From contig VGCH01000003.1 of the NCBI GenBank assembly GCA_016870115.1, positions 1 through 64,000 of the forward strand: a DNA stretch of 64,000 bases, written 5' to 3'. Shown here in pieces: positions 17,431-29,466 of this stretch. Under the pieces are notes generated by a model that was not told the origin of the DNA, did no database searches, and worked only from the letters and a program-made list of their open reading frames with translations. Source of the DNA: Alphaproteobacteria bacterium (GTDB lineage: Bacteria > Pseudomonadota > Alphaproteobacteria > Reyranellales > Reyranellaceae). Each line of letters starts with the position of its first letter. Positions within the stretch are counted from its first letter, which is position 1. The translations under genes and the position numbers were made by a program.

Positions 17431-19884
17431 CTACGCCGACCCGCCCGCACCCGGTGCCGCCGGCTCGCCGCGCGCCGCGGCGACCCGTGCGATCGCCGCC
17501 GAGATCGACGGTTGGCGTGCGCTCAGCCGGCGGAAATCGGCCTTGTCTAGGGCCAACAAGTGGCAGGTTCCGTCCGCCACGACGTCGGCGTTGCGCGGCC
17601 GGTCGCTGAGAAGCCCCATCTCACCGAAGAACTCGCCTTCACCGAGCGGGATGCGGCCAACGTCGGCATGAACGACCACGCGGCCCGCAGCGATGAAGAA
17701 CATCGCGTCCGCGGGATCGCCCTTGGCGACGATGCGCTCGCCGGCCTCGACCGCGACCGGCCTCAGCAACCGCCCGACCGCCGAGACCGTGCGACCGTCG
17801 CAGCCGCTGAACAGGGATACCCGCGAGATCATGGCCGCGAGCTCGGAGCCAAGGCGCAGACTCGGCCGGCGATCGAGTGCGGCCCGTCGTTCAGCGAGCG
17901 CCTGCTCCAGGCTCTCGTAGACCTCACGACTGATCGTGGCGTCGTCGAGGTGGCGGCGGTACTCCGCTCCCTCGATCCGAATCTCGGCTTGCAGGATGTG
18001 ACGTTCGCGAATCTCCTCGGCGTAGCTGGTGTAGAGGAGCGACAGGGCACGGAGCGCCCGATCCACGGCCTCCCGCCGCTCGGCCATCAATTCCGAGATC
18101 GCGTCACCCGCCTCGCGACCCGCCACGGCCCGGACCGGTTCGCGCGCGGCTCGCTTCAGTTCGTCGAGTATGGACTGCCAGACCATCAGCGCCTCGAACC
18201 GGTCAGCGAGTTCGTCCGCCAGCGGCTCCTCCCACCCGAACCGTCGGTAGAGCCAGGCGGCGATCCGGAATCGGAGATCGGGTCGCGACTGCAGGTGAAC
18301 CGCCTCGCGATAGGCAGGCGCTCCGCCGGTCTTCACCGCGTCCGAGAGCCGATCGACGCCGGCGGTCAGGATCGCCACCAGCCGGCGCGACAGAGTGCGA
18401 TGCGCGAACAGGTCGAGGTAGATGTGCCGCTCGCGCTCGCACAGCGTCAGCAACCCAGCTTCGACCCGCTTCGCCACATCGAGCACCGGGCCCGGCTCGG
18501 CTAGCGCCGCCGTTTCGGCGGCCGGCGGTGCGCCCCGTAAAGTCGCGACATCGCGCGCGACCCGCTCCCGGGAAAGCCCGAGAACGCGGTCCCGCACCGC
18601 CTGCTGGGTGGCGCTCAGCCGGTTCAGCCCGAAGGCGCCGATCAGCAGGCGAAGCGTCGGCGCATTGACGAACAGGGTGAACAGCACGAACAGGGTCGCC
18701 AGGACCGCCACGAACTCGGTGACCTCGGGCGCGAGGCGCGAATCGCCGGCGGCCACAAGCGCCAGCACCACCGTGACCGCGCCGCGCAGCCCGCCCCAGA
18801 CCAGGATTGTCTTGTAGCTCGTCGCCACGGGCGCCACGAGCCGCGCGCCGACCAGAGCCGGCAGCAGACCGAAGAGCACGAGTGCGCGCGACCCGAAAGC
18901 CGCGACGATCACCGCGCCGAGACCGGCGAGGTGGATCCACTGGATCCGGGTGAGCACCTCGGCGGCCAACATCGACGCCAGCACGAAGATGAGGCCGTTG
19001 GCCCAGAACTCGAGCTGATGCCAGGTGCGCTTCAGCGCCGTCCATGAGCCGGGGCTGAGATGAGTAGGCCCGTAGCCCGCCAGAGTGAGCGCCGCGACCA
19101 CCACGGCCACCACGCCCGAAACATGCAGATAGCGATCGCTCAGGATGTAGCTGACATAGGCGAGGCCGACCGTGAACGAGGCGATGGCCGCGTCCGCTCC
19201 AAGCCGCGGCAGAACGAAGACGGCGGCGCGTGCCAACACGAAGCCGACAACGATCCCGCCCGCGAATTCGCGCAGGAACTTCAGGCCCGGCGCCGCCGCA
19301 TCGGGCATGGTCTGCCAGACCAGAATCTCGATCAGGATGCCGAAGGCGGCGATAGCCGCAGCGTCATTGAAGAGCGATTCGCCCTCGGCAAGGATGGTGA
19401 GGCGCTTCGGCGCCCCGACATCGCGGAACACGCCGATGACCGCGGCCGGATCGGTCGTCGACACGATCGCGCCCAGGAGCAAGCAGACGATCAGGCCGGC
19501 GCCCATTGCCTGGTTCACAATGGCGCCCACCGCGCCAATACAGACCAGGACCGCCACGATGGCGAGCAGCAGGACCGCTGAGACCTCGTCCAGCAGGCGG
19601 CGCACGTCGATTGTCAGGCCTGCCGTGAACAGCAGAGGCGGCAGGAAGATGGACAGAAAGACCGTTGCGCCGCCGCCAAGATGGCGCAGCCCCTGAAAGG
19701 CGTCGGCCACGATCCCGCCCACCCCTGCCCCGGTGACCGCGCTCGCGAAGAACCCGAGGGCGATGCCGCAGACGGCCAAGAGCACGGTGTGCGGCAGGCG
19801 CAGGCGCTCCGCAACCGGCACCAGCACGCTGACCAGCGCGAGGACCAGCACCACCGCCAGAACCGCAAAGACGACTTCGACCAC
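17431..19884 (-). CDS. Na+/H+ antiporter (NhaP/CPA1 type) with C-terminal cyclic-nucleotide-binding domain
   Basis: An 817-aa inner-membrane protein. About twelve membrane segments of the CPA1 exchanger fold cover residues 1-400, with GAIVSTTDPAAVIGVFRDVG, LAEGESLFNDAAAIAAFGIL (the ion-binding Asp region) and ILVWGGLRGAVTVVLAL. A long, mostly helical cytoplasmic region follows, then a cNMP-binding domain at about 690-800 whose phosphate-binding cassette is GEGEFFGEMGLLSDRPRNADV. Exchange is therefore probably gated by a cyclic nucleotide or an equivalent ligand, as in SOS1-like exchangers. The GTG at 19884 is the likely start; an ATG at 19932 would add 16 residues. It is divergent from the alpha/beta hydrolase, 67 nt away. 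Confidence 0.92.
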   Translation of the reverse strand: MVEVVFAVLAVVLVLALVSVLVPVAERLRLPHTVLLAVCGIALGFFASAVTGAGVGGIVADAFQGLRHLGGGATVFLSIFLPPLLFTAGLTIDVRRLLDEVSAVLLLAIVAVLVCIGAVGAIVNQAMGAGLIVCLLLGAIVSTTDPAAVIGVFRDVGAPKRLTILAEGESLFNDAAAIAAFGILIEILVWQTMPDAAAPGLKFLREFAGGIVVGFVLARAAVFVLPRLGADAAIASFTVGLAYVSYILSDRYLHVSGVVAVVVAALTLAGYGPTHLSPGSWTALKRTWHQLEFWANGLIFVLASMLAAEVLTRIQWIHLAGLGAVIVAAFGSRALVLFGLLPALVGARLVAPVATSYKTILVWGGLRGAVTVVLALVAAGDSRLAPEVTEFVAVLATLFVLFTLFVNAPTLRLLIGAFGLNRLSATQQAVRDRVLGLSRERVARDVATLRGAPPAAETAALAEPGPVLDVAKRVEAGLLTLCERERHIYLDLFAHRTLSRRLVAILTAGVDRLSDAVKTGGAPAYREAVHLQSRPDLRFRIAAWLYRRFGWEEPLADELADRFEALMVWQSILDELKRAAREPVRAVAGREAGDAISELMAERREAVDRALRALSLLYTSYAEEIRERHILQAEIRIEGAEYRRHLDDATISREVYESLEQALAERRAALDRRPSLRLGSELAAMISRVSLFSGCDGRTVSAVGRLLRPVAVEAGERIVAKGDPADAMFFIAAGRVVVHADVGRIPLGEGEFFGEMGLLSDRPRNADVVADGTCHLLALDKADFRRLSARQPSISAAIARVAAARGEPAAPGAGGSA

Positions 19885-19951
19885 CGACCCTCGCGTCGAC
19901 CGTACCGCGCCCGGGTGTCGCGCCGGGCACATCCGGTTTACACTATCTGCC

Positions 19952-21259: not shown

Positions 21260-22438
21260 TCAGGGGCAGGTGGCGGGCGGTGCGACCGGCAGCGGTGCCT
21301 CGACCGAGAGCGAACGCAGGAACGCCACCAGATCAGCGCTCTCCCCCGGTGTGAGACCGAGCGGCCGCACCAGTCGCTCCGTATTGCCGTGGAGGCAATC
21401 GAGGCTCACCGTGGAGTAATGCTCCACCACGCTCTCCAGCGTCGGCTTGCTGCCATCGTGCATGTACGGCCCCGTGCGCGCGACTTGGCGCAGGCCCGGA
21501 ATCTTGAACTCTCCGAAGTTGCGGTGCTGGCGTTCAACATGGCGAAGCCGCGTCGCGCCCGCGCCATCGGCGCTGTCACTGTGCGATCCCAAACGGTTGA
21601 AGGGGTTGGCGAGCGCCTGCGCGATGCCCTCGAAGCGCCCCGGGTCGACACCGCCGGAGCGTCGAAAGAACGGGATGCCCACATCCGCGAACTCGCCGGT
21701 CGTGAAGCGCGGTCCGAAATGGCAGGCGGCGCACTCCCCTCGTCCGACGAAGAGCTTCAGTCCACGCTTGGCATCATCCGGATAGGCCGCAATGCCGGCC
21801 GCGTCGCCGGCAATCAACGCATCGCGAAACGCGTCGAACGGCGTGCGTGGTGAAACCAACGTCTCCTGAAAGGCCGCCAGCGCCTTGCCGATGTCGACGA
21901 GCACGCGCTCGTCCTCGGGCGGCTCGGCACCGAATGCGGCGCGATGGAAGCACGCCAGCGTCGCGTCCTCGCGGACCAGCCGCGCCGCGCGACGGGCGTC
22001 ACTCGCCATCTCCGCCGGATCGAGGATCGGGCGGATGCTTTGCGCCCAAAGCGAGTCGCCTTGTCCGGCCCATCCGAACCACGCCGCATGACCCAGGTTC
22101 CAAAGCGGCTGCGTGCGGCGATCGAGCGGCACCGCGCCTTGCCCCGCTGCAACGCCGTCGGTCCAGTCTCGGTCGGGTCGATGACAGGTCGCGCAGGCAA
22201 GCCGACCATCAGCCGATAGCCGGGGCTCCGCGAAGAGGCGCGCGCCGAATGCGATGGCGGCGGGCTGACCCGACCCACGGTTCGACAAGTCCCGTCGCGG
22301 TGCCGGCGGCCATGGGCCATGCGCGGCGATCGCTCTGCGTTCGGCCTCGTCGAAGGTCGGTGCGGGCTCGCGCGCCGCAGCGATGACCACAGTCGCGATC
22401 GCGATCAGAAGTCCGGCGGCGATCCACCTGAGGGTCAT
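21260..22438 (-). CDS. Di-heme cytochrome c peroxidase family protein (MauG/CcpA-like)
   Basis: A 392-aa periplasmic protein with an N-terminal hydrophobic export signal (residues 1-22) and two c-heme sites, CATCH at 82-86 and CAACH at 236-240, spaced as in bacterial di-heme peroxidases and MauG. LFAEPRLSADGRLACATCH, SLWAQSIRPILDPAEM, GRGECAACHFGPRFT and IPGLRQVARTGPYMHDGS are family blocks. The two candidate roles are peroxide reduction and MauG-like oxidative modification of a partner protein; the sequence does not separate them. The ATG overlaps the stop of the small YtkA/FixH-like gene (ATGA), making it the last gene of a four-gene coupled operon. It converges on ruvX. Confidence 0.9.
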   Translation of the reverse strand: MTLRWIAAGLLIAIATVVIAAAREPAPTFDEAERRAIAAHGPWPPAPRRDLSNRGSGQPAAIAFGARLFAEPRLSADGRLACATCHRPDRDWTDGVAAGQGAVPLDRRTQPLWNLGHAAWFGWAGQGDSLWAQSIRPILDPAEMASDARRAARLVREDATLACFHRAAFGAEPPEDERVLVDIGKALAAFQETLVSPRTPFDAFRDALIAGDAAGIAAYPDDAKRGLKLFVGRGECAACHFGPRFTTGEFADVGIPFFRRSGGVDPGRFEGIAQALANPFNRLGSHSDSADGAGATRLRHVERQHRNFGEFKIPGLRQVARTGPYMHDGSKPTLESVVEHYSTVSLDCLHGNTERLVRPLGLTPGESADLVAFLRSLSVEAPLPVAPPATCP

Positions 22439-22842
22439 TGCACCATCATGTCATGCGTCAGGCGCTCGGTCGTATCGCCGGAGCGGACATCGAGCGCGAG
22501 CTCCCAGCGGCCCGGCATGTGGAAGACCATCCCCTCGACACGGTAGCGGCCGTCGCCCAGATCGATGAGCCGTGGCCGGTAGTTCATCCCATGCGCGTGC
22601 TCAGGCATGGTCGCATCGATCGCGACCAGCTGGGCAGGCTGGTTTCGCCGATCGCACACGTTCAGCAGAAGCGCGAACGGTTCGCCGACCTCGATCTGCG
22701 GGGGATCCGGTCGCATCGCCAGCAGGTGCTGCGAGGAGAAGACCGCCCAGCCGAGGCCCCGTCCCAGATCCAGCGGACAGTTGGCGACGGCGGGCGCGCT
22801 TGTCGCGACGAGCATCGCGAGAGCTGTGAGCACGGCCCTCAT
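22435..22842 (-). CDS. Small exported YtkA/FixH-like domain protein
   Basis: A 135-aa protein with a signal peptide (MRAVLTALAMLVATSAPAVA). The mature beta-sandwich-like part resembles YtkA/FixH-type domains: PPQIEVGEPFALLLNVCDRR, IDATMPEHAHGMNYRPRLIDL and GMVFHMPGRWELALDV. The MPEHAHGMNY and FHMPG segments supply clustered Met and His of the sort used for copper binding, but metal binding is inferred. There are two cysteines in the mature part (NCPLDL and NVCDRR). It is joined by ATGA overlaps to the amidohydrolase upstream and the di-heme peroxidase downstream, so a role in delivering metal or substrate to the peroxidase is plausible. Confidence 0.75.
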   Translation of the reverse strand: MRAVLTALAMLVATSAPAVANCPLDLGRGLGWAVFSSQHLLAMRPDPPQIEVGEPFALLLNVCDRRNQPAQLVAIDATMPEHAHGMNYRPRLIDLGDGRYRVEGMVFHMPGRWELALDVRSGDTTERLTHDMMVQ

Positions 22843-23672
22843 CGCGTCGTCGCCGTGCCAGCGGGCCAATGGGCGAACAGCCGCTCGCCATTGCGCCAGG
22901 CGATTTGCTCTGCGACCTGGCGCGGCAGGTCGGCGAGCCACTGGCGCGACCAGCGGGCATGCTCGATCACATAGTGCCAACGCTCGGGGGTGAAGGAGTC
23001 GGTGCCGACCATGAAGCGGTCGGGAAACTCCAGAAACGCCTCGCGCCAGCCCGGAGCCACGCGGCCGTTGCTGGCATGGCTTGTCAGAAACGCCAGATCG
23101 CACCACAGGTTGGGATACTTCCGGAGCATCTCTCGGACCTTCTCGGGCCGGTCGAATCCGGAGTGCGCCCAAAGCACCTTGATCGTCGGGTCCTGACGGA
23201 AGTGCCGCTCGACGGCATCGGCGTCGGAATGCGAATGCAGAACCAGCCCGTGCTGGCGCGCGAGTTCGAGCGAGCGACGCATGTTGGGCAGATCGGCGTC
23301 GGCGCCGAAGATGTGGAACTCGCCGAACGCCGCGTACTTGCGGGTCCGCAGCAGCTCCTCGAGATGGCCGACGATGGTGGTATCGCGTGCCCAGGTCGAG
23401 AGCTCGCCGCGCGACCGTTAGGGACGCAGCGAAGGCACGATCAGCTCGGGCGCGACCTCTTGCAAGAGGCGCGTGCCGTCATTGTTCGAGCTCGAGACCA
23501 TGGCGCGTTTGATTCCCGCCTTACGCAAGATCGCTACCGCCTCGCGTGGCGGCACCACCGCCCAGGCATCGTGGCTGTAGTGCAGATGAGCGTCGAATAT
23601 CGGTAGCTCGTCGGCGGCGGCCGGCGCGGCGGCGAACAGGACAAGACAGACGGCGGCAAGCCTTGCCTTCAT
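22839..23672 (-). pseudogene. Exported amidohydrolase (metal-dependent TIM barrel), interrupted by an in-frame TAA
   Basis: The reading frame runs 277 codons from the ATG at 23672 (GGAGG upstream) to a TGA at 22839-22841, but codon 85 is TAA (23418-23420). Before it come a signal peptide and the amidohydrolase metal motif IFDAHLHYS. After it, without any frame change, come GEFHIFGADADLPNMRRSLE, LVLHSHSDADAV, VLWAHSGFDRPEKV, LWCDLAF and MVGTDSFTPERW, the remaining metal and barrel elements. A single third-base change from a Tyr codon would explain the stop. Both ends keep 4-nt overlaps with their neighbours. The family hydrolyses amide, lactone or C-C bonds. If the stop is real, only an 84-residue fragment is made. 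Confidence 0.85.
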
Positions 23673-24313
23673 GGCGATCCTCCGGGACGGCGGCGCGGCG
23701 TCCACGCGAAATTGAAGCTAATCGAGATACGCTCGCCGGTGAAGCGCGCCGGCGGTACCTCGTGGCGCAACCAACTCTCGAACAGGATCACCTCACCTGC
23801 CCGGGCCGGCACGCTCACGAAGGGCCGGCGCGCCATAGGTGCCGACGGGCGGCGCGGCGGCGCCGCCATGGCGAGCGCGAGCCGCGGATCCTCGAACTTA
23901 AGTGCCGCCGCGCCGCGCGGGACCATGACGTAGTAGGTCCCGCTGAGCACGGAGTTGGGGTGCAGGTGCAGACTGTGACCGCTGCCCGCCGGCAAGACAT
24001 TGGCCCAGCAATCCGTCAGCGCGAGCGAGCCACCTTGCAGATCCCAGTGCAGGAGGCGCGCGAAGCGATCCGCGTGCGGAGCCAGCGCCCGACCCAGCGC
24101 CGCGAAGGGGGTGGCGACGCGATGGAGTTGGTCGAGCGATCCGTAGGAGGTGTAGCCGCCGAGGTAGTGGCGGGCGGACCATCGCCGGCCGGCAGCGTCT
24201 GCCGCAGTCAGAGCGGCGATCTCGTCAGCCAGGCGCCGGTTGGCGAGCGCGCCGAACGCGCGGCCGAGCGGCGCCTTGTAGATCGAGGTCGGGAAGAGAT
24301 CGAGCGCGGGCAT
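23669..24313 (-). CDS. Putative 2OG-Fe(II) oxygenase (TIGR02466-like)
   Basis: A 214-aa cytosolic protein matching the TIGR02466-type oxygenases. The N terminus LDLFPTSIYKAPL, the metal region HSLHLHPNSVLSGTYYVMVP, KFEDPRLALAMAAP, then AGEVILFESWLRHEVPP with the distal His, and RISISFNFAW with the Arg that binds 2-oxoglutarate, are all in order. Members hydroxylate unknown substrates. It is the first gene of a minus-strand operon; its stop overlaps the amidohydrolase ATG (ATGA). The start is 44 nt from the divergent PhyH oxygenase, so two different 2OG oxygenases share one short promoter region. Confidence 0.83.
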   Translation of the reverse strand: MPALDLFPTSIYKAPLGRAFGALANRRLADEIAALTAADAAGRRWSARHYLGGYTSYGSLDQLHRVATPFAALGRALAPHADRFARLLHWDLQGGSLALTDCWANVLPAGSGHSLHLHPNSVLSGTYYVMVPRGAAALKFEDPRLALAMAAPPRRPSAPMARRPFVSVPARAGEVILFESWLRHEVPPARFTGERISISFNFAWTPRRRPGGSP

Positions 24314-25861: not shown

Positions 25862-26443
25862 ATGCGCCTCATGACCATTCTCGCATTGCTCCTGGGCGCG
25901 CTCGTCTCGCCTGCCTTGGCAGGACCGAACGACCCCTGGACCCTCGACATGCGGGCGAGCAAGCTCGGCTTCAACGCCCAGCAGACCGGCCAGTTCATCA
26001 ATGGACGCTTTGAGCGATGGACCGGCGACATCGTGCTCGACCCGGCCAATCCGGCAACAGCGCGAATCGATATCCGAATCGAGATGAAGTCGGCCAAGAC
26101 GAGCAGCAAGGACGTCGATGACCTCCTGCACGGTCGCGATTTCTTCGATGTGGCGCGCCACGCGGAGGGGCGCTTCACCGCGAGTTAGGTACGCGCGCTG
26201 GGCGGCGACCGCTTCGAGGCGCGTGGCAAGCTCACAATCCGCGATGTCACGCGCGACGTCGCGCTGCCCTTCACGCTCTCTGTCAGCGACGGCGCCGGTG
26301 GCGCGCTGGCAGCCCGCGCGCGCGGCCGCCTTTCCGTCAAGCGCCTCGACTATGGCGTGGGCCGCAATGAGTTTGCCAACACCAACCATGTCGCCGACGA
26401 CGTGACGATCGAACTCGAGATCGTCGCCAGCCGTCCCAAGTGA
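25862..26443 (+). pseudogene. YceI-family periplasmic protein, interrupted by an in-frame TAG
   Basis: The frame covers 193 codons from the ATG at 25862 to the TGA at 26441-26443, with a TAG at 26186-26188 (codon 109). The first part has a signal peptide (MRLMTILALLLGALVSPALA), WTLDMRASKLGFNAQQTGQF and DVDDLLHGRDFFDVARHAEGRF. Past the stop the same frame reads VRALGGDRFEARGKLTIRDV, VALPFTL and VKRLDYGVGRNEFANT, ending VTIELEIVASRPK, the normal second half of a YceI lipocalin-like barrel. One base substitution would explain the break. The shortened product would lose half the barrel and probably not fold. It sits between cytochrome b561 and an intact YceI paralogue. Confidence 0.85.
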
Positions 26444-27093: not shown

Positions 27094-28179
27094 CTAAGCC
27101 GGTCGCGGTCCCACGTAGTTGGACTGCGGCCGGATGATCCGGCCCGAGCGCTCCTGCTCGAAGACGTGCGCGCACCAGCCGGCGGCGCGCCCGACCGCGA
27201 ACAGCGCCGTGAAGGCGCTGCGCGGGATCGCCAGCGCTTCCAGGAGCAGCGCGGTATAGAACTCGACGTTGGTGTCGAGGCGCTGCTTGGGCTTGGCGGC
27301 CCGCAGGGCGGCGATTGCCGCGCGTTCGATGTCGGCGGCGAACGCGAGACGCCCGGCGGTCGACGGAAGCGTCGCCACGGCCGCCTTCAGGACATCGGCC
27401 CGCGGATCCCGAACCTTATAGATGCGGTGGCCGACGCCCATCAGCCGGACACCGTCGGCGAACGCGCGGCGGAACCACGGCTCGGCAGCCTCGACGGTGC
27501 CGATCTCGTCCAGCATGTCGAGCACCGGTCCCGGCGCGCCGCCATGCAATGGCCCCTTCAACGCGCAGAGTCCGGCCAGCACAGCCGAAACGAGTTCGGC
27601 CCGCGTCGATGCGGCAACACGGGCGGTGCAGGTCGAGGCGTTGAAGCCGTGATCGGCCACCGTTCCCAGGTAGATGTCGAGCGCCCGCTCGAACACCGGC
27701 GGCGCGGGTTCGCCCCGGATCATGCGCAACAGGTCCTGCGCGGTGCCGAGCGCGGGATCCGGCGCGATTGGCGCGGCGCCGGTGGCGGAACGCAAGATGG
27801 CCGCGAGGGCGACCGGCAGAGCGCCACACACCCGCAGATGGGCAGGCAGAGTATCGGTGTCCGGGAGCATCGCGAGCGACAGACGCAACGCTTCGACGGG
27901 CGTGAGGCCTCGTGCGGCGGCCAAGAGCGCCGGCACGCTTGCCCACGCGCGGGTACGAGCCTCGCCCAAGCCACGCCGCACGGCCGTTTCGTCGCCCCCG
28001 GCCTCAGCGAGGCCGTCCCACAGCACCGCCGCCACCGCCTCGAAGCCCCGGGTCGCGACCAGATCCCCGATCGAGTGGCCGCGGACGATCAGGCGGCCGG
28101 CCTGGCCATCCACCTCGCTCAGCGCCGTATCGGCGACCACGACCCCGTCCAGCCCGCTATCGACCCGTGTCAGCATCAT
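27094..28179 (-). CDS. Citrate synthase-family enzyme (short form)
   Basis: A citrate/2-methylcitrate synthase-type protein of about 361 aa that condenses acetyl- or propionyl-CoA with oxaloacetate. Both catalytic His are present, in LKGPLHGGAPGP and GVGHRIYKVRDPRADVL. The acidic residue of the triad is Glu in DTNVEFYTALLLEAL where many family members have Asp. The C terminus AGWCAHVFEQERSGRIIRPQSNYVGPRPA is typical. Start choice is uncertain: adjacent ATGs at 28179 and 28176 follow GGGGGA, and an ATG at 28191 precedes it. It is divergent from a second citrate synthase that carries an N-terminal HTH. It is not obviously the main TCA enzyme, which is usually longer. Confidence 0.88.
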   Translation of the reverse strand: MMLTRVDSGLDGVVVADTALSEVDGQAGRLIVRGHSIGDLVATRGFEAVAAVLWDGLAEAGGDETAVRRGLGEARTRAWASVPALLAAARGLTPVEALRLSLAMLPDTDTLPAHLRVCGALPVALAAILRSATGAAPIAPDPALGTAQDLLRMIRGEPAPPVFERALDIYLGTVADHGFNASTCTARVAASTRAELVSAVLAGLCALKGPLHGGAPGPVLDMLDEIGTVEAAEPWFRRAFADGVRLMGVGHRIYKVRDPRADVLKAAVATLPSTAGRLAFAADIERAAIAALRAAKPKQRLDTNVEFYTALLLEALAIPRSAFTALFAVGRAAGWCAHVFEQERSGRIIRPQSNYVGPRPA

Positions 28180-28226
28180 CGCATCCCCCATTGTTGCGGG
28201 CGGAAGCGTCGGACTCGTAGTATAAC

Positions 28227-28258
28227 TTGTCAATCTTGATTAGGTTGATCAATATAAA
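28227..28258. promoter_or_regulatory. Phased TTG repeats and palindrome between divergent citrate synthases
   Basis: In an AT-rich gap, three TTG-led units begin at 28227, 28236 and 28245, exactly 9 bp apart. The last is the perfect palindrome TTGATCAA (28245-28252). A promoter-like TTGTCA at 28227 and a TATAAA at 28253 flank the repeats. This is a good candidate binding site for the HTH-bearing citrate synthase encoded immediately downstream, but binding is inferred only. Confidence 0.45.
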
Positions 28259-28260
28259 CT

Positions 28261-29466
28261 ATGGCTAACCAGCTCCTGACCTCCCGCGAAGCCGCGCGGC
28301 GCCTCGGCGTCTCCTCGGCGACGCTCTACGCCTATGTGAGCCGGGGCCTGATCCGGTCCCACGCCGAGCCCGGCCGCCGCGAGCGCGGCTACCGCTCCGA
28401 CGAGATCGCCGCTCTGCAGCGACATCGGAAGTCGGGCCGCGGCGGCGCGGCGGTGGCCGCCAGCGCCCTCGATTTCGGGCGCCCACTGCTGGACTCGGCG
28501 CTCACGCTGATCGCGGGCAACCAACTGTTCTATCGCGGGCAAGACGCCGCCCGCCTCGCGCGCACCGCCTCACTCGAGGAGGTCGCCGCCCTCCTCTGGC
28601 AATGCGACGCATTCCCGTTCGCCGTCGACAACCTGCCGACCGTCGGGCCGGCGCTGCGGCGCGCGTGGCTCGCCGCCGCGCCGCTCCCGCCGCTCGATCG
28701 GTGCCTCGCCATCCTGCCGATCGCGGGGGCGCTCGATCCGGCGAGCTGGTCGGGCGACGCGGCAGCCCTGCGGCGGACCGGCGCTCGGCTCCTGCGCCTC
28801 TCGACCGCCGCCGTCGCCGGGCGCCCGCCCTCGCCGGAGCCGGTTCACCTCCAGCTGGCGCGCGCCTGGCGCCTCGACGCCACAGGCGCCGGGCTGGTGC
28901 GCGCAGCGATGGTGTTGATGGCCGACCACGAGTTCAACGCATCGGCGTTCGCCGCGCGGGTGGTGGCCTCGACCGGCGCGAACCTGCACGCGGCGCTGGT
29001 CGCGGGGCTCGCCGCGCTGAGCGGCCCCAAGCACGGAGGGCTCACCGCGCGGGTGGCGGCACTCTTTGCCGAGGCCGCGGCGGCGGGCGACATCGAAGCC
29101 GTGCTCGCCGCGCGCCTGCGACAGCGGATTTTCATCCCGGGCTTCGGCCACCGCCTCTATCCCGACGGCGACATCCGCGCGACGACCCTGCTTGCCCTGC
29201 TGCGCGAGGCGCTGCCCGATCATCCCGGGACCCGGCTGGCGCTCGACCTCGCCAGCGCGGCGCAACGCCTGATCGGCCGGCCGCCCAACATCGATTTCGC
29301 GACCGTGGCGTTGCAGCATGTGCTCGGCCTGCCCGAGCACTCGGCGCTTGCGATGTTCGTGATCGGCCGGACCGTTGGGTGGACCGCGCACGCGCTGGAG
29401 CAGGCTGCGCTGGACGAGCTGATCCGCCCTCGCGCGCGCTACACCGGGCCGCCGCCGGCGGCGTGA
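28261..29466 (+). CDS. Citrate synthase-family protein with N-terminal MerR-like helix-turn-helix
   Basis: A 401-aa fusion. Residues 1-60 form a MerR/HTH_17-type DNA-binding domain (LTSREAARRLGVSSATLYAYVSRGLIRS, then RRERGYRSDEIAALQRHR). From about residue 70 comes a complete citrate synthase-like fold: LSGPKHGGLTARV (His), GFGHRLYPDGDIRATTLLAL (His) and RPPNIDFATVALQHVLGL (Asp), so the catalytic triad is intact. The C terminus WTAHALEQAALDELIRPRARYTG is normal. No ribosome-binding site precedes the ATG, which follows an A/T-rich stretch directly. It is divergent from a second citrate synthase. A metabolite-responsive regulator that also keeps catalytic residues is the likely reading. Confidence 0.9.
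   Translation: MANQLLTSREAARRLGVSSATLYAYVSRGLIRSHAEPGRRERGYRSDEIAALQRHRKSGRGGAAVAASALDFGRPLLDSALTLIAGNQLFYRGQDAARLARTASLEEVAALLWQCDAFPFAVDNLPTVGPALRRAWLAAAPLPPLDRCLAILPIAGALDPASWSGDAAALRRTGARLLRLSTAAVAGRPPSPEPVHLQLARAWRLDATGAGLVRAAMVLMADHEFNASAFAARVVASTGANLHAALVAGLAALSGPKHGGLTARVAALFAEAAAAGDIEAVLAARLRQRIFIPGFGHRLYPDGDIRATTLLALLREALPDHPGTRLALDLASAAQRLIGRPPNIDFATVALQHVLGLPEHSALAMFVIGRTVGWTAHALEQAALDELIRPRARYTGPPPAA

Follow-up and report, generated by a model that had tools for sequence, protein, structure and literature searches.

A conserved gene trio for an exported amidohydrolase-fold protein, a YtkA-like protein and a MauG-like di-heme enzyme: a possible periplasmic maturation module

We analyzed a window of 64,000 nucleotides of genomic DNA from a member of the Reyranellaceae, in which four neighboring genes had been annotated as an undescribed cassette. 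From comparison of related loci, the cassette is best read as a three-gene module with a bystander upstream. The module consists of AMI (positions 22839–23672), an exported Amidohydro_2 protein with a TIM-barrel fold; YTK (22435–22842), an exported YtkA-like protein of 135 aa; and PER (21260–22438), an exported MauG-like di-heme enzyme of 392 aa. The upstream neighbor is a TIGR02466-type 2OG-Fe(II) oxygenase (23669–24313). All four coding regions, which lie on the minus strand, were correctly placed in the first-pass annotation; its family assignments (TIGR02466 oxygenase, Amidohydro_2, YtkA and CCP_MauG) held, and the ATGA overlaps that it reported are present at all three junctions (23669–23672, 22839–22842 and 22435–22438). 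The proposal of an undescribed cassette was supported for AMI, YTK and PER but not for the oxygenase, which occurs family-wide. The trio is apparently a widespread bacterial unit, of which we found no description in the open-access literature, and it probably serves to build or mature one metalloprotein outside the cytoplasm.

The closest relatives of the window locus are those of Reyranella. PER orthologs with 52–63% identity were detected in 29 relatives, all 29 of which have AMI and YTK beside PER. An alignment search of genome contigs with AMI yielded 475 relatives, and 80 were kept for neighborhood analysis. YTK and PER lay directly downstream of AMI in 77 of these loci, which span Reyranella, other Alphaproteobacteria, and Betaproteobacteria including Rubrivivax, Sulfuritalea and Hydrogenophaga; one of the three remaining loci ends at a contig edge. 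Among cultured carriers, contigs with the trio are found in Reyranella massiliensis, R. soli, R. aquatilis and Rubrivivax rivuli. The association was reciprocal. Among 385 alphaproteobacterial genomes, PER (at least 454 bits) was present in 26 and AMI (at least 388 bits) in 27, the next unrelated PER match scoring 171 bits, and every one of the 26 PER genomes, from 11 families, also carried AMI, with the genes adjoining. No YTK or PER was found near more distant AMIs, and neither PER nor AMI was found near the 29 generic YtkA genes examined. Co-occurrence, which the first-pass annotation had proposed as a check on all four families, was thus clear for these three, whereas all four were rarely together outside Reyranella.

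The coupling between the genes was similarly conserved. Of 104 loci, 73 had a 4-nt overlap of AMI and YTK, and 78 had an overlap of 4 or 1 nt between YTK and PER. Our script takes the start nearest to the stop and so favors overlaps, but the peak at −4 was still sharp; conserved across loci in this way, the overlaps are not due to chance. Moreover, AMI and YTK were encoded as a single protein in three genomes (one alphaproteobacterial, two from another proteobacterial class), and YTK and PER as a single protein in one betaproteobacterium. None of these fused proteins had a second, internal signal peptide. The genes flanking the trio vary, and no conserved transporter or downstream enzyme was found beside it.

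These observations bear on the possibility that the trio is a small catabolic pathway of the periplasm, in which PER would oxidize a small molecule, AMI would hydrolyze the product and YTK would supply metal or electrons. Some relatives of di-heme peroxidases, such as the rubber oxygenase RoxA and oleate dioxygenase, do act on small molecules, and the retention of standard metal ligands in AMI fits such a role. However, variable flanks without a conserved transporter or downstream enzyme are not what a pathway would lead us to expect, and the YTK fusions suggest a protein complex, making this reading improbable. Genes flanking the trio (GroEL/ES, phosphate ABC, UbiE, GST, beta-lactamase fold and TauD) and those flanking non-trio AMIs (RND pump, TRAP and kinase) were rejected as functional clues, being inconsistent between loci. 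In two loci, a distant exported AMI homolog lies after the gene for an RND multidrug efflux pump, overlapping it or at most 13 nt away. The window also holds a Na+/H+ exchanger gene (17431–19887, minus strand), whose product has a cyclic-nucleotide-binding domain at its C terminus; its position beside the trio locus is conserved in Reyranella.

The oxygenase matched TIGR02466 with 213.7 bits, against a cut-off of 62.5. If it belonged to a four-component system, as first proposed, it should accompany the trio, and it does lie directly upstream in the window and in all 41 complete Reyranella loci. Its overlap with AMI is not conserved, with gaps of 8–21 nt in Reyranella, and in every non-Reyranella lineage seen the oxygenase was absent from beside the trio. 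Orthologs were present in 12 of 12 Reyranellaceae genomes tested, including five that lack AMI and PER, and in sister genera carrying the trio the gene is located elsewhere. We therefore rejected the four-component reading, to which we give hardly any weight; as judged from these loci, the oxygenase is a neighbor and not a component. In four non-Reyranella loci, a TauD-family 2OG-Fe oxygenase gene, assigned by Pfam in one representative, was seen upstream of AMI on the same strand; this set is too small to build on as a parallel to the window oxygenase.

In the window, AMI is interrupted. Frame translation and alignment placed an in-frame TAA at codon 85 (23418–23420, minus strand), and the Amidohydro_2 (PF04909) match, with 46.9 bits, falls on the part after the stop. 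The first-pass annotation had overlooked this codon: the position of the gene stands, but 22839–23672 is not a single open frame, and the accompanying statement that the proteins are translated as a set fails for this copy because of the interruption. Codon 85 encodes Tyr in all 101 relatives with a residue there (LRPYRSRGE context), both halves of AMI retain family residues, and a genome-wide search found no second copy in the source genome. The intact halves and the lack of another copy indicate that the window AMI was recently broken or has been misread; the TAA may be a sequencing error, or else the system may not be active here. Single in-frame TAG codons were also seen in two other AMIs and one other PER, two of them at invariant Trp positions, and can be explained either by decay or by sequence error. 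A second stop-interrupted gene lies within 3 kb, at a distance of 2.8 kb: a YceI-like gene (25862–26437, plus strand) is split by a single in-frame TAG (26186–26188), and both halves match the YceI profile. The stops in AMI and YceI fit local decay and sequence errors alike. The window also contains a divergent citrate synthase-like pair (28261–29466, plus strand; 27094–28233, minus strand), the former of which carries a MerR-type helix-turn-helix at the N terminus, in fusion with citrate synthase.

The AMI fold is predicted to be a TIM barrel (pLDDT 90 for the model of an ortholog); searching the PDB by sequence turned up no relative for AMI, nor for YTK. The metal ligands H29, H31, E118, H148, H170 and D225, comprising an HxH motif and further ligands, are conserved and are common to trio AMIs and non-trio relatives. 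The two groups differ at S33, H34, D35, P229 and E230, among other positions. With the ordinary amidohydrolase ligands kept as in relatives outside the trio, no special cofactor is evident in AMI. Three loci (L271, L304 and L169) carry close AMIs without YTK and PER, indicating that AMI can work alone in relatives.

PER matched the CCP_MauG profile with 113 bits and contains two heme c motifs, CATCH at codons 82–86 (22181–22195) and CAACH at codons 236–240 (21719–21733). The best relatives among solved structures were MauG and 6e1c, recorded as a di-heme enzyme, which we take to be MbnH. In the alignment, PER Tyr341 (21416–21418) corresponds to MauG Tyr294, the axial ligand of the six-coordinate heme, and was found in 92 of 92 trio PERs; Trp123 (22070–22072) corresponds to the inter-heme Trp93 of MauG, and Gln133, Pro137 and Glu143 correspond to Gln103, Pro107 and Glu113. 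Tyr341, Trp123, Pro137 and Glu143 are invariant across about 100 trio PERs, and Gln133 is present in most. The position equivalent to MauG Trp199, presumably the surface Trp two residues before the second CxxCH through which electrons are transferred to pre-MADH, is Gly234 in PER, likewise two residues before the motif. PER scored 178.5 bits with TIGR03791 (MauG) and 135.5 bits with TIGR04039 (MbnH), below the curated cut-offs of 443.85 and 362.85, respectively. PER is therefore MauG/MbnH-like at its heme sites and is filed as neither. In 11 peroxidase sequences, including one from the source genome, the axial position is Met. Phylogenetic analysis placed 19 trio PERs in one group (support 100/100, stem 1.31), separate from MauG, MbnH, the MtoX-associated enzyme and the peroxidases. 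The Tyr ligand and the tree position rule out an ordinary CcpA peroxidase, in agreement with the MauG-type enzyme suspected at first reading.

YTK matched YtkA (PF13115) with 26.9 bits against a gathering cut-off of 25.9, a marginal assignment since a whole-genome scan missed it. Its model (pLDDT 90) predicts an all-beta domain, to which the nearest solved folds were Helicobacter CrdA, in its apo and silver forms, and, more weakly, FetP and CopC. In trio YTKs the Met-rich loop of generic YtkA proteins is replaced by MPxHxHGMNY, and a His-Met pair is added before the common PGxW, giving the signature MPxHxHGMNY...HMPGxW, which is invariant or nearly so. In the window, these elements are MPEHAHGMNY at codons 79–88 (22579–22608, minus strand) and His108-Met109 of FHMPGRW (22516–22521, minus strand). 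M79, P80, H82, H84 and N87 were found in 105 of 105 sequences, as were His108 and Met109; Y88 was found in 104 and M86 in 103. Two Cys residues are also invariant or nearly so, and the only invariant Trp, Trp113, is part of the general YtkA fold. The alignment thus points to a candidate His/Met metal site, and the fold match and residues suggest that YTK resembles a copper protein, with copper as the putative metal. The first-pass suggestion of a PER partner or a copper chaperone gained support, in that YTK has features of both.

The relation of this predicted site to AMI and PER can be examined where the partners are missing. Seven relatives within the family lack AMI; five of these are Reyranella, in which AMI and PER have been lost and YTK is intact between the oxygenase and RuvX. 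Pairs of these solo YTKs are under purifying selection (dN/dS about 0.06–0.2). Trp113, both Cys and the residues of the fold are retained, but the His/Met signature, including His108-Met109, has gone entirely from all five. In a further genome (G020), PER is a relic, and AMI and a signature-bearing YTK are still whole. The five solo YTKs form one tree group (82/92), so they may not represent independent losses. As the signature erodes where AMI and PER are lost while YTK stays under selection, the simplest reading of these sequences, and one for which the evidence is strong, is that the putative metal site serves AMI/PER.

This pattern would be unexpected for a general oxidase chaperone, and it bears on a housekeeping explanation, in which PER would remove peroxide, YTK would aid copper assembly of cytochrome oxidase and AMI would be unrelated. 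The components of that explanation have precedents: the YtkA protein CtaK of Bacillus subtilis is implicated in CuA assembly (PMC13344008), and peroxide reduction is within the capacity of Tyr-ligated di-heme enzymes, as the example of BthA demonstrates (PMC6405878). However, the perfect reciprocity of PER with AMI, the fusions and the position of PER outside the Met-ligated peroxidase group make it very unlikely. YTK shares with YtkA/CtaK and CrdA the Pfam domain and, as predicted, the fold, and differs from them in the replaced Met-rich loop, the two invariant Cys and its genetic link to AMI and PER.

The nearest parallel to the trio is the operon of mtoX, SCO1/SenC and mauG, in which SCO–MauG fusions are known (PMC5739008). 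Both have the order target enzyme, copper chaperone and MauG-like gene, with AMI in the place of the target, and both have carrier–MauG fusions; in the Ruegeria pomeroyi mtoX locus the SCO and mauG genes overlap by 4 nt, as at the last junction of the trio. In contrast, AMI is an Amidohydro_2 protein and not SBP56/MtoX, the methanethiol oxidase, the trio carrier is YtkA-like and not SCO, and PER falls in a separate clade. By analogy with this operon, PER would act as the oxidant and YTK as the copper carrier, with AMI as the likely target. MauG itself, which acts in TTQ biosynthesis, has the Tyr ligand, inter-heme Trp and Gln/Pro/Glu set in common with PER; apart from the sub-threshold score and the Gly at the Trp199 position, the trio differs in having no methylamine dehydrogenase genes nearby.

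MbnH/MbnP and CorB/CorA likewise pair a di-heme enzyme (Tyr-ligated in MbnH) with a copper-binding partner encoded beside it. MbnP is a substrate of MbnH, and CorA is thought to be one of CorB; YTK could similarly be the substrate of PER, which would oxidize a residue at the His/Met site and complete the copper site, with the loaded YTK then serving AMI. The YTK–PER fusion and the loss of the YTK signature together with PER and AMI speak for this reading, as does CorA/MopE, in which the copper site has a kynurenine derived from Trp and a di-heme protein is co-transcribed alongside (PMC3912023). Unlike in the MbnH system, the partner of PER is YtkA-like and not MbnP, and PER falls below the MbnH cut-off. 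YTK has no dedicated Trp for kynurenine: Trp113 is general to YtkA and kept in YTKs without PER, and is thus an unlikely target. Oxidation would then have to fall on Tyr88, a His or a Met, and we regard YTK as the PER substrate as possible but rather unlikely.

Taken together, these comparisons lead us to favor, tentatively and at somewhat less than an even chance, one translation-coupled periplasmic maturation module, with a metalloenzyme as its target, a carrier of the copper type and a MauG-like di-heme enzyme as the oxidant. With copper bound at its His/Met site, YTK would sit between AMI and PER. PER, with its Tyr/His-ligated heme, inter-heme Trp and acid-base Glu, would react with peroxide to reach a high-valent state and would oxidize a residue of AMI or of an AMI–YTK complex, yielding the mature exported amidohydrolase-fold enzyme. 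Counted against this module are the lone AMIs, the ordinary AMI ligands, the non-Trp residue at the MauG Trp199 site, and the stops in the window AMI and in a few other trio genes. We regard as rather unlikely a stronger version, in which the product of the trio is an exported amidohydrolase-fold enzyme of a new class, dependent on copper or covalently modified, and owes its maturation to a MauG-like enzyme acting via a carrier of YtkA type whose His/Met copper site is itself new.

The superfamily of MauG-like di-heme enzymes is large, yet its known substrates are few; for one clade, the trio suggests two candidate partners, with support from gene fusions. A natural control is provided by the genomes where YTK has outlived both partners and its predicted metal site has eroded, and cultured Reyranella or Rubrivivax would allow a concrete experiment. 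If the proposed module is correct, the amidohydrolase superfamily would join the targets of MauG-type maturation.
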